Of a stretch of 64,000 nt of DNA, positions 49,357 to 54,170 are shown one piece after another. The first letter of the stretch is position 1; every line of letters begins with the position of its first letter. The DNA comes from Bacteroidota bacterium (GTDB taxonomy: Bacteria; Bacteroidota; Bacteroidia; NS11-12g; UBA9320). The notes beneath the pieces are model-generated. The model was given only the letters and a program-made list of their open reading frames with translations. It was not told where the DNA came from and searched no databases. The stretch is taken from contig JABWCE010000004.1 of the NCBI GenBank assembly GCA_013359235.1, positions 106,555 through 170,554 of the forward strand. The letters are read 5' to 3'. The translations under genes and the position numbers were made by a program.

Positions 49357-49782
49357 TTACAATTTCCATTCAGCAAAGGTTTCATCTGTTTCAAAAATCT
49401 TTAACCCACTAAGAACAACGCCTTGAGGTAGTTTGTTTTTAAGTTTTTTTCTTATATATACCAATAAATTTTCTAAAGTAGGTTCTGCATCCCAAACTAT
49501 CAAATTTCCATGATTTGAAAACTCCGGATTTGTTTTCAAATAATTTTTTGATAATAAAAGTTTATGGTCGAAATTTGAAATAATCTCAGCTTTTATAATT
49601 TCTTTCAATTCTTCAAAATTTACTATATAACCTGGCGATTTTACATATTTTTCAATATCGTGTTTTGACGAAAATGTTACATGCAACTTATATGAATGAC
49701 CATGAATATATTGACAAACACCGGGAAAATTGTCAATTGCATGAGCCATTTCAAAATGGAAAATTTTAGTTAAACTAATCAT
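49357..49782 (-). CDS. queD: 6-carboxytetrahydropterin synthase / 6-pyruvoyl-tetrahydropterin synthase family
   Basis: FEMAHAIDNFPGVCQYIHGHSYKLHV; ATGA overlap with the norB-like stop codon. Confidence 0.88.
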   Translation of the reverse strand: MISLTKIFHFEMAHAIDNFPGVCQYIHGHSYKLHVTFSSKHDIEKYVKSPGYIVNFEELKEIIKAEIISNFDHKLLLSKNYLKTNPEFSNHGNLIVWDAEPTLENLLVYIRKKLKNKLPQGVVLSGLKIFETDETFAEWKL

Positions 49783-51152
49783 AATTCCGTTTTTTCAATT
49801 TGCTTACCTTCGGTATTCAAAATACAGAGGACCTGATTTTTTACAAGTGGATAAATAACCATAATAAGCCCTGTAGCAAGTACAGTACCTGCAATCAGAA
49901 ATGAATAAAAATAAGGTTTAAGCATTTCTTTCATTTCTGCAAAAGGTATTTGCTCTGTGCTCATTTGCCATTTTGACTTTAAAATACCGGCTATTATAAG
50001 CGAAATCCAAAATATAAATAGTGAAAAATTTGCAATCCAATAGCCAGATTTCATAAGTTTTTTATATGGTTCAAAACTAATACACGAATTGCTCAATGTT
50101 TCGTAAGCTATTGCTAAAAGCAGCATGGTGTTTATACCTATTGTGGTTCCCATTGTATGAGCTACGGTAATATGAGTACCATGTGTATAAAGATTTATTG
50201 CAGGAATTGACATCATAATTGCAAGCAAAAGGTTTAAAAAAATCCAAACATCGGCTGCTGCAAGAAACCTATAAGAAGAGCGGTAAAAATTCTTTTTTGC
50301 TTCTGATAATGTAGAATTCCATTTGTATATAATTCGTCCAATAATGAACAATTCGGTCATACTCACAAGATAACTGATATGTTTAATAAAATTATGGGTT
50401 GGTAATACATAAATATGATGCCCCCAGTTAAACATCAAATTAAACAAACCTGTAAAATACAAAGCAAAAGCAATATTAGAGCGGGCATAAGCCTTATTCC
50501 CGCTTATTTTATCCATTAAATAAATGCTGCAACCATAAATCAACATATTCCACGAACCAACCATTGAACCGTAAGATTTCCATTGTATTGTCATATCATT
50601 TACAACATTGTTTCTAAAATATGGGAATATCCAAAGATATGATTCTAAAAAAGTGAAAAGAAAAAATACTGTTCCTGTAAACCACATCCAAACATATACC
50701 GGATGATGTTTTATAGTTTTTATAGTTTTAATAAAATTTATAATAAACAATACCCAACCTAAAACAATAGGTAAAGCCAGCAATGGAGGGAACTCCCAAT
50801 ACTCTCTACCCCCAAAAACACCAAAGAAATATGAAATGAGAATAGCAATAAATGTAAATACAAAAAGTATAAGTTGAATTTTTATTAAGATTGATGAGTA
50901 TATTTTTTTTTGAGTATATTCAAGAATATAAGTCCAGGTACCTCCTACTGCCGTAATTATTATCCAGAAAATAACAGACGAAACATGCAATGGTCTTACT
51001 TTTTCGAATGATAAATATTCTTTAAAAAGACCCGGTATTATGTATTGAAAGGCTCCTACAATGCCAAATAGCAGCCCAAAAACTACCAGAAACAAACCTG
51101 ATAATATAAAGAGTTTTGGTGTTGTGATTTTTTCAGTATTCAATTGTTCCAT
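49779..51152 (-). CDS. NorB-like haem-copper oxidase superfamily subunit (divergent)
   Basis: 12-TM protein; RPLHVSSVIFW, FNWGHHIYVLP, YTHGTHITVAHTMGTTIG resemble NorB/cbb3 subunit I; paired with a NorC-like cytochrome. Confidence 0.85.
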   Translation of the reverse strand: MEQLNTEKITTPKLFILSGLFLVVFGLLFGIVGAFQYIIPGLFKEYLSFEKVRPLHVSSVIFWIIITAVGGTWTYILEYTQKKIYSSILIKIQLILFVFTFIAILISYFFGVFGGREYWEFPPLLALPIVLGWVLFIINFIKTIKTIKHHPVYVWMWFTGTVFFLFTFLESYLWIFPYFRNNVVNDMTIQWKSYGSMVGSWNMLIYGCSIYLMDKISGNKAYARSNIAFALYFTGLFNLMFNWGHHIYVLPTHNFIKHISYLVSMTELFIIGRIIYKWNSTLSEAKKNFYRSSYRFLAAADVWIFLNLLLAIMMSIPAINLYTHGTHITVAHTMGTTIGINTMLLLAIAYETLSNSCISFEPYKKLMKSGYWIANFSLFIFWISLIIAGILKSKWQMSTEQIPFAEMKEMLKPYFYSFLIAGTVLATGLIMVIYPLVKNQVLCILNTEGKQIEKTEL

Positions 51153-51534
51153 CCTTGTTTATTTTATATGTACGTGGGTCGGCTTTACCGCTTTTATCCA
51201 TCATTTCAAGAAATGCTAAGAGTGATTTTATTTCGTCTTCACTAAAATTAAACTTTGGCATTATCTGCGTTCCTGATTGTAAAAAAGCTGCTATATATTC
51301 AGGTCCTCTTTTTGAATATACATTTGTGAGGTCAGGTCCTAAGTAGCCTCCAAGTCCATATACCTGATGACATGCATTACAATTGTATTTTTGCCACAAA
51401 TCCATACCTTTTACACATTGTTCTGAAATTTTTCGTTGCTTATACGGCAAAAATGTGTACAGATACACAGAATACGATAGAAAAGCAATCGTCAGAAAAA
51501 TAATCAAAACAAGTTTTTGTTTTTCCGATAGCAT
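51133..51534 (-). CDS. NorC-like membrane-anchored monohaem cytochrome c
   Basis: N-terminal TM, WQKYNCNACHQVYGLGGYLGPDLTNVYSKRG (CxxCH) and IMPKF Met ligand; overlaps norB-like ORF. Confidence 0.9.
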   Translation of the reverse strand: MLSEKQKLVLIIFLTIAFLSYSVYLYTFLPYKQRKISEQCVKGMDLWQKYNCNACHQVYGLGGYLGPDLTNVYSKRGPEYIAAFLQSGTQIMPKFNFSEDEIKSLLAFLEMMDKSGKADPRTYKINKDGTIEY

Positions 51535-51578: not shown

Positions 51579-52643
51579 TTGCCAAACGTTTTAAAATATT
51601 GCTCTTTAAAATTTAAAATGAACGATAAGTTTATAAAAAAATACAGCTCGATGACAGGCAGTTCAAATACTGCATACATCGAAAAGTTATTACCTCTGAT
51701 TGAGGAAATAAAAGAATTGAAAAAAAAGCACAATGCAGTAGTACTTTCTCATTATTACATGACACCCGAATTGCAAATTGAGGAAAAAGAGGGTGGAATT
51801 GCTGATTTTGTAGGCGATTCGTTAGGCTTGAGTGTAGCTGCTACTAAAACCGATGCAGATTACATTGTTTTTTGCGGAGTAAAATTTATGGCAGAAACTG
51901 CTTTTATTTTAAATCCAAAGAAAACGGTTTTATTGCCCGATGACGATGCAGGGTGTTCGCTTGCCGAAAGTATCACAGGCGATGATGTTATAAAATTAAA
52001 ATCAAAATATCCAGGTATTCCCGTAATTGCTTATATAAATACTTATGCCGAAACAAAAGCCGAATGTGATGTGTGTTGTACTTCGCGAAATGCCATAAAA
52101 ATAGCCAAATCGTTCGAAAGTAAAGAACTTATTTTTATTCCCGATCAATTTATGGGACAAAATCTCGCTGTAAAATTTGCCACCGAAACCGATAAAAAAT
52201 TGATTTTATGGTCTGGCACATGTGAGGTTCATGAGCAATTTAGAACAAATATAGAAAGTTTAACTTTAGCAAATCCAGGCGCTGAACTATTGTTACACTG
52301 GGAAGTACCTCAAGAAACAGTTGAATCTACCCTTAAAAACAATAAAGGAATAGTTGGAAGCACTTCTGATATTTTGAACTATGTTGAAAACAGTAAATCA
52401 AGAGAATTTATTTTAGGTTCAGAATGTGACTTGGGTGCTACATTAAAAGGAATGTACCCCGATAGGCAATTTATAACACCATGTATAATGTGCCGTCACA
52501 TGAAACTTATAACTTTGCAAAAAACACTTGATGCACTTAGGTCAATTAATACCGAAACTGAAATAAAATATAAGATAAAAGTTGACGAACCTGTTTTATC
52601 AAAAGCTTATATTCCTATAAAACGAATGTTGGACTTAAGCTGA
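51579..52643 (+). CDS. nadA: Quinolinate synthase
   Basis: VVLSHYYMTPELQ, NTYAETKAECDVCCTSRNA, PCIMCRHMKLITL. Confidence 0.94.
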   Translation: MPNVLKYCSLKFKMNDKFIKKYSSMTGSSNTAYIEKLLPLIEEIKELKKKHNAVVLSHYYMTPELQIEEKEGGIADFVGDSLGLSVAATKTDADYIVFCGVKFMAETAFILNPKKTVLLPDDDAGCSLAESITGDDVIKLKSKYPGIPVIAYINTYAETKAECDVCCTSRNAIKIAKSFESKELIFIPDQFMGQNLAVKFATETDKKLILWSGTCEVHEQFRTNIESLTLANPGAELLLHWEVPQETVESTLKNNKGIVGSTSDILNYVENSKSREFILGSECDLGATLKGMYPDRQFITPCIMCRHMKLITLQKTLDALRSINTETEIKYKIKVDEPVLSKAYIPIKRMLDLS

Positions 52644-52646
52644 TAA

Positions 52647-54170
52647 ATGAAAACCCTCAAAACAGATATACTTGTACTTGGAAGCGGAATAGCCGGGCTT
52701 AGTTTTGCTATTAAAGCTGCAAAACTCGGCAAAGTATGTATTGCAACCAAAGCTGCTTGTGCCGAAAGTAATACACGACTTGCTCAAGGTGGTATTGCAA
52801 GTGTACAAGGTAAAGATGATTCTTTTAAATCTCATATACAAGATACTTTAACTGCAGGTGCCGGTCATTGTGATATATCGGCTGTAGAAATGGTTGTAAA
52901 AAAAGCACCAAAAATGATTGACGAACTGTACCAAATGGGAGTTAAATTCAATCTTTCTGAAAAAAACACACTTGATTTAGGTAAAGAAGGAGGACACTCC
53001 CACAACCGCATAGTTCATGTAGAAGACCGCTCTGGCATGGCTGTAGAAAATATTTTGCTTAAAAAAGCAAGAGAAAACAAAAACATTACATTTTATGAAT
53101 ATCATTTTGCAATTGATTTTGTTAAAAAAAATAAAAAATGCACAGGTGCAATAGTTTGGGATATTAAAAACAATGTAGATATTTTTTTTAATTCAAAAAT
53201 AACAGTGCTTGCCACCGGTGGAGCCGGGCAGGTTTATAAAACAACTACAAACCCCCCAATAGCTACAGGAGATGGAATTGCAATGGCGTATAATGCTGAT
53301 GTAAAAATAAGCGATATGGAATTTGTACAGTTTCATCCTACCTCTCTTTTTCATCCTAAGGCTAATGGATTTTTAATAAGCGAAGCTCTTAGAGGATTTG
53401 GTGCCGAATTATCTAATAAAGATGGCAAACCATTTATGAACCAATATCACGAAAAAGGTTCATTAGCTCCGAGAGATGTGGTTTCGAGAGCTATATTCAA
53501 CGAAATGAAAAAAAACAAAACCGAATGTATGTATCTAAATGCCACATTACTTGATAGTGATAGTCTTAAAAAAAATTTCCCCTCAATTTACAATACCTGT
53601 CTTGGCTTGGGTATTGATATCACCAAACAACTAATTCCAATAATTCCGGCAGCACATTACATTTGTGGCGGTGTAAAAACTAATCTTCATGGGCAAACAA
53701 GTCTCGATAGGCTATTTGCTCTTGGCGAGGTTTCTTGTACGGGATTGCATGGTGCAAATCGTTTAGCCAGCAATTCGCTTCTCGAAGGTCTTGTGTTTGC
53801 TGATGCCGCAATTAATTTTATAAAAAAAAACTTTATTAAATTAGAAAATATTGATGAAAATGAAATTTTAGATATAAACTTTAATAAAAAACCTTTGAAA
53901 ACTAACATTCAGATTTCAAAACTTGAAAACAAAATAAGAGAAACCATGTGGAAATTTGTTGGTATTGTGCGTAAAGCCGAAGGTTTAAAAAAAGCCGAAC
54001 TTATCTTAAATGAAATTGAAAAATCAATAAATTTATTGCTATTAAATTATAAAAAAAATCAAGAATTAATAGAACTTCGCAATTTGTTAATCACTTCAAA
54101 AATAATTACTTCGGCAGCAATAAAACGTAAACACAGTTTGGGCACACATTTTATTATTGGAAACCAATAA
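52647..54170 (+). CDS. nadB: L-aspartate oxidase
   Basis: LGSGIAGLSFAIKAAK FAD motif; GGHSHNRIVHVEDRSGMAVE; AAHYICGGVKTNLHGQTSLDRLFALGEVSCTGLHGANRLASNSLLEGLVF. Confidence 0.96.
   Translation: MKTLKTDILVLGSGIAGLSFAIKAAKLGKVCIATKAACAESNTRLAQGGIASVQGKDDSFKSHIQDTLTAGAGHCDISAVEMVVKKAPKMIDELYQMGVKFNLSEKNTLDLGKEGGHSHNRIVHVEDRSGMAVENILLKKARENKNITFYEYHFAIDFVKKNKKCTGAIVWDIKNNVDIFFNSKITVLATGGAGQVYKTTTNPPIATGDGIAMAYNADVKISDMEFVQFHPTSLFHPKANGFLISEALRGFGAELSNKDGKPFMNQYHEKGSLAPRDVVSRAIFNEMKKNKTECMYLNATLLDSDSLKKNFPSIYNTCLGLGIDITKQLIPIIPAAHYICGGVKTNLHGQTSLDRLFALGEVSCTGLHGANRLASNSLLEGLVFADAAINFIKKNFIKLENIDENEILDINFNKKPLKTNIQISKLENKIRETMWKFVGIVRKAEGLKKAELILNEIEKSINLLLLNYKKNQELIELRNLLITSKIITSAAIKRKHSLGTHFIIGNQ

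Follow-up and report, generated by a model that had tools for sequence, protein, structure and literature searches.

The window analysed here, a 64,000-nucleotide stretch of a Bacteroidota genome, encodes a NorB-like protein whose family holds at canonical positions four of the six histidines of the signature sextet that defines the haem-copper superfamily (PMC3413370). The family is a conserved and widespread variant that is undescribed as far as the literature searched shows; no description was found there, the primary 2024 NOR classification lying outside that scope. We tentatively propose, as a plausible though doubtful whole, that its members would combine a two-His site (perhaps Lys-assisted or metal-free) with a low-spin haem b on His and Met, and would act as an NO-consuming partner of clade II NosZ in non-denitrifying, N2O-respiring Bacteroidota that are mostly scored as NOR-less.

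Ligand changes in a NorB-like subunit and its family

The NorC-like ORF precedes the NorB-like ORF and overlaps it by 20 bases (Table 1). The layout given by the initial annotation, a CNACH cytochrome followed by a subunit of 12 transmembrane helices as is usual for such pairs, agrees with the ORFs and with the AlphaFold model of the NorB-like protein (64 sequences, pLDDT 87, pTM 0.89, 12 long helices). The 12-helix COX1 fold of the haem-copper superfamily is present, as seen from the Pfam COX1 match and from a structure search with the model, which retrieved 6xkw (cbb3), 3o0r (cNOR) and 4xyd at TM ~0.8. By sequence the nearest solved structures are cNOR and subunit I of cbb3, at low identity, the best PDB match being Roseobacter NorB 4xyd. 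None of the NCBIfam equivalog models scored above its own cut-off (78.7 bits for the ccoN model TIGR00780, whose cut-off is 583). The protein consists of the COX1 domain only, NorC being separate, and the N-terminal cytochrome-c-like extension of qNOR and NO dismutase is absent.

Table 1. Genes and ligand segments of the NorB-like locus in the window
Feature	Position	Strand	Basis
Membrane-anchored cytochrome c resembling NorC; CNACH, Met in GTQIMPKF	51133..51534	-	Pfam Cytochrome_CBB3
Haem-copper subunit resembling NorB (457 aa, 12 transmembrane helices)	49779..51152	-	ORF; Pfam COX1 E=7e-38
PTPS/QueD-like gene, start overlapping norB stop	49357..49782	-	Pfam PTPS
Helix II H56, putative ligand of the low-spin haem, retained	50985..50987	-	101/101 conserved
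Helix VI segment Q190-G207 (QWKSYGSMVGSWNMLIYG), FeB/CuB His and cNOR Glu absent	50532..50585	-	
K192, Lys invariant in and specific to the family, three positions ahead of G195; Trp in cNOR/cbb3	50577..50579	-	
Helix VII H245-H246, two retained non-haem metal ligands (putative)	50415..50420	-	101/101 conserved
Helix X H332-T-M334, His of haem b3 retained, invariant Met in place of the low-spin haem His	50151..50159	-	

Homologues were searched in named genomes, in the order, in the phylum and in the family of one carrier. The resulting set comprises 101 distinct intact proteins with at least 40% identity to the window protein and down to 32% among themselves. The helix-II His, the helix-VII HH and the helix-X His, noted earlier as kept in the window protein, are indeed there and in every relative (H56, H245, H246 and H332, 101/101). 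Only one further His, H324, is invariant, and it is found in cNOR too; among the 101 homologues there is no newly invariant His able to replace the lost ligands.

Helix VI was described at first as lacking both His and Glu. This holds for all 101 homologues, but the segment spans 50532-50585, one codon longer than the 50532-50582 originally given. Its consensus throughout the set is QWKxxGxxVGxWN, with Q190, W191, K192, G195, V198, G199 and N202 invariant; His, Glu and Asp are absent from residues 187-207 in 101/101, and position 200 is Cys in seven proteins. The position that the missing His would occupy is uncertain by one residue: alignment to cNOR puts it at Y194 with MAFFT, whereas hhalign to cNOR leaves a gap of one residue there, between Y194 and G195, and hhalign to cbb3 puts it at G195. 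We favour G195 because this would put W191 four residues ahead of the ligand, the arrangement found in RWWVVH of cNOR and QWWYGH of cbb3; the A-type enzyme of the window's genome (WFLGH) has the same Trp-to-ligand spacing of four. Since position 194 varies within the family (Y/N/M/A/S/G), Y194 is no conserved replacement ligand. The Glu of cNOR aligns at V198. Another register that would restore a His was rejected, as each of the three independent alignments gives a non-ligand at the site, and neither MAFFT nor the two hhalign alignments yield another His as third metal ligand. Two apparent cbb3 proteins without the helix-VI His (L119, L121) proved to carry NWWFGHNAVG, in which the His is present.

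In helix X, hhalign pairs H332-T-M334 without gaps with the H-G-H of cNOR and with the H-V-H of cbb3, and M334 is invariant in 101/101, which bears out the original reading of the HxH motif as H-T-M. Compared with cNOR, the second ligand position of the bis-His low-spin haem b is therefore occupied in this family by an invariant Met, and the FeB site of three His and a Glu is reduced to the helix-VII HH, the helix-VI His and Glu being absent in 101/101. The suggestion of altered metal binding and a His/Met low-spin haem stands as far as the ligand positions are concerned, whereas the actual ligation of the haems, like the metal site and the reaction, is what we infer from the sequences.

The ligand loss is a family trait, not a peculiarity of the single gene in the window. 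Between the window gene and its nearest relative, dN is 0.08 and dS 2.6, a mark of purifying selection. This substitution pattern, together with the conservation in 101/101, rules out sequencing error or chance as the source of the changes and also a decayed gene in the window.

Other elements of the cNOR architecture persist. The GRExWE motif aligns with the GRxxxE stretch that forms a calcium site in cNOR, E267 in helix VIII aligns with SALE of cNOR, and THGT is kept; together with a NorC that carries CxxCH, these features suggest that electrons still enter through the cytochrome c subunit. This retained input of electrons via haem c, the absence of any fused sensor or output domain and the invariance of both helix-VII His make it quite unlikely that the protein is a haem-only enzyme or sensor, which would hold no non-haem metal, place Lys192 in the space of the third ligand and bind NO or turn it over slowly, even though no member has the third His or the Glu, and an invariant Lys lies three residues from the expected ligand.

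Relation to known haem-copper enzymes

In a tree of 57 rows with cNOR, qNOR and cbb3 of Bacteroidota as references, all members of the NorB-like family fall in one clade (support 100/98), whose long branch sits between cNOR/qNOR on one side and cbb3 on the other. cNOR is a separate clade (100/99), and the family lies outside the cNOR, qNOR and CcoN clades. Its deep placement is provisional because the tree is unrooted, uses Bacteroidota references only and includes no B-family NOR. At the sequence level, the earlier assignment to a divergent NOR-like clade is strongly supported by this separate clade and by the changed ligand positions.

With cNOR (3o0r of Pseudomonas aeruginosa, 4xyd of Roseobacter denitrificans) the family shares the NorC-NorB pair, the 12 helices, the helix-II His, the helix-VII HH, the first His of helix X, THGT, GRExxE and the helix-VIII Glu (E267). 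It differs from it in lacking the helix-VI His and Glu, in H-x-M for H-x-H, in an identity of 21-24% and in its separate clade. With CcoN of cbb3 it has in common the QW at the start of helix VI, a TM of 0.8 and an hhalign probability of 99.7%, whereas neither the His of helix VI nor the second His of helix X is present and the clade is again separate; no CcoO- or CcoP-type subunits were seen beside the NorB-like gene. By its sequence features the family would thus be filed outside cNOR, because metal site, low-spin ligands and clade disagree, and equally outside cbb3, for which ligands, clade and model cut-off disagree, and outside qNOR/NOD, whose N-terminal domain it lacks.

The cbb3 oxidases are nevertheless its second-closest relatives, and the window's genome has no strong cbb3 match, as would suit a high-affinity O2 reductase of microoxic N2O respirers. 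To our knowledge, all O2 reductases characterised so far keep the six His and the cross-linked Tyr, and the genes adjoining the NorB-like gene indicate NO and N2O rather than O2; we therefore regard this role as very improbable. Apart from the NorB-like protein, the window's genome encodes just one haem-copper subunit I, an ordinary O2 reductase of the HPEVY type, so that the NorB-like protein is its only NOR-like haem-copper protein.

The families that the 2024 NOR classification added (eNOR, sNOR, gNOR and nNOR), and likewise bNOR, comprise haem-copper NORs whose active sites depart from the canonical one. PMC11388526 relates them to the B-family oxidases. Since the NorB-like family has C-type and cNOR proteins as its relatives by sequence and fold, and groups with them in a tree of cNOR, qNOR and cbb3 references, it is probably distinct from these families. 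The putative NO dismutases of the qNOR group (Methylomirabilis) offer another precedent, as they too are changed at one His of the metal site and at the Glu close to it; the other His are kept, Asn and Gln stand at the changed sites and there is apparently no uptake of external electrons (PMC3413370). The NorB-like proteins are not qNOR-like, have residues other than Asn and Gln at these sites, are changed at a low-spin ligand as well and retain NorC as cytochrome c donor, so that an NO dismutase-like or other N-N-forming activity needing no external electrons seems extremely improbable.

Gene neighbourhood and the link to clade II nosZ

Neighbours were counted within ~5 kb of the NorB-like gene at 90 loci. 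A NorC-like ORF adjoins it in 87 of them; CxxCH is present in these 87 proteins, 67 of which have a Met-[PQ]-x-Phe motif. The other recurrent neighbours are genes for Rrf2 (42 loci), PTPS (36), DGC-domain (24) and beta-eliminating lyase (23) proteins, followed by qNOR (14), RIC/ScdA (9), Crp (9) and globin (6), and at least one NO-type neighbour occurs in 56/90 loci. Nearly all of the Rrf2 proteins near NorB-like genes (43/46) contain C-x6-C-x5-C, presumably the NsrR-like spacing of these regulators, and their matches to the NCBIfam NsrR model stay below cut-off. The PTPS/QueD-like gene is probably co-transcribed with norB, given its overlap with the end of norB and its recurrence in the family.

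Several neighbours were recorded in their own right. The genes nadA and nadB adjoin norCB in the window (51579-54170) and in other lineages with norCB near nosZ (L145-L148; L023, L024, L026, L028). The beta-eliminating lyase gene recurs near norC (L148:3607-4989, L028:2384-3775 and ~20 other loci), without an evident connection to NO or N2O metabolism, and its copy in L148 passes the tyrosine phenol-lyase model. A protein of 433 aa (L034:8097-9398 and six other loci) with partial COX1 similarity below cut-off adjoins a DUF2249/DUF1858 protein and is possibly NnrS-like or a reduced haem-copper relative. A membrane protein of 407 aa with the His-rich, HCO-like motif LHAHSHFAFGGW (L062:3223-4446 and six other loci) has no confident family match.

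The genomic link of the family to N2O respiration is strong. Across the 108 genomes of the order to which the window's genome belongs, clade II nosZ is above cut-off in 8/10 carriers (G000, G002, G004, G006, G051, G057, G059, G062, G063 and G064) versus 4/98 non-carriers (Fisher p=5.9e-8). It is also above cut-off in 50/57 further carriers, and in another family it is found in 11/12 intact carriers versus 20/64 non-carriers (p=1.3e-4). When pooled, after removal of two genomes counted twice with identical coordinates (G510 = G491, G552 = G006), about 67/77 carriers have nosZ. On a single contig in each of G004, G006, G051, G057 and G059, norCB lies 7-15 kb from nosZ, inside a conserved nosZ-nosD-nosF-nosY block. 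The three truncated or frameshifted NorB-like copies (L167, L168 and L169, in G687, G648 and G670, respectively) are all in genomes without nosZ, which suggests co-loss of the two genes; all three may derive from one shared loss event. Incomplete MAGs blur the remaining presence calls for carriers and nosZ.

In the window's genome (G000), clade II NosZ is encoded on contig C28 (161644-163455), a small cytochrome c gene precedes nosZ and there is no match to the NirK model TIGR02376. The organism is by genotype a non-denitrifying N2O reducer, as scored from NosZ present and NirK, the nitrite reductase searched for, not detected. NirK was above cut-off in only 2/10 carriers of the order. A search of 65 carriers with a cNOR from Bacteroidota matched a NOR of canonical or cNOR-like kind in 24 and none in the other 41; among the 24 co-occurring NORs, 16 are of qNOR size and eight are cNOR-like, three of these only 32-35% identical. 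The family is no simple replacement for canonical NOR, because NOR is also present in 24 carriers and qNOR adjoins it in 14 of the 90 loci.

Near confinement to nosZ genomes, physical linkage to nos genes, broken copies where nosZ is missing and the small cytochrome c gene before nosZ would all be expected if the protein supported NosZ without reducing NO, either by redox exchange with the periplasmic cytochrome c pool that feeds NosZ or by binding NO at haem b3 and so shielding NosZ. Such a role deserves attention but is unlikely: many nosZ genomes do without the gene, as in the 20/64 non-carriers, NO-response genes adjoin it, and the haem b3 His and the metal HH never vary, although a mere electron relay could do without them. 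The nosZ link and the NO-response neighbours together narrow the likely function of the family.

Proposed function and its significance

We consider the protein to be a cytochrome-c-fed membrane enzyme of the C-type/NOR branch in clade II NosZ N2O respirers, with NO consumption as its most likely activity, a reading to which we give slightly less than even credence. In the model, the haem c of the NorC-like subunit would donate electrons to a low-spin haem b on His56 and Met334, and this in turn to a high-spin haem b3 on His332. With Met as a ligand, the low-spin haem should have a higher potential. Beside haem b3, a non-haem metal would be held by His245 and His246 only, with the invariant Lys192 and Asn202 nearby, and the substrate would be reduced at haem b3 next to this two-His site. 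As a speculation, K192, one turn before the lost ligand, could fill space, neutralise charge or contact a propionate. NO would be consumed and probably reduced to N2O, which NosZ would then remove, serving detoxification or a modest respiration.

NO is the likeliest substrate because of the gene setting; the genomic association, however, is as much with NosZ as with NO. Characterised cNORs cannot do without the helix-VI His and Glu that are lost here, which makes NO reduction by the standard mechanism doubtful, and confidence in NO reduction as such is tempered by the absence of residues that cNOR needs. Cloacibacterium CB-01, an isolate with clade II nosZ and an annotated cNor that may or may not be of this family, showed minor NO reductase activity only (PMC11168931).

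A conserved and widespread haem-copper group without two of the six His would provide a natural test of which ligands are required for NO chemistry. Bacteroidota with nosZ and no nir mostly lack nor, only 17% having it (PMC4250227), and a recent survey dropped NOR candidates without the conserved ligands (PMC12569097). If the NorB-like family consumes NO, many nosZ-bearing Bacteroidota have been wrongly scored for NOR; if it does not, norB annotations mislead in strains meant for N2O mitigation. The family bears in this way on N2O emissions, and it may represent an enzyme of gas metabolism that has so far gone unrecognised and whose active site is of a novel type.
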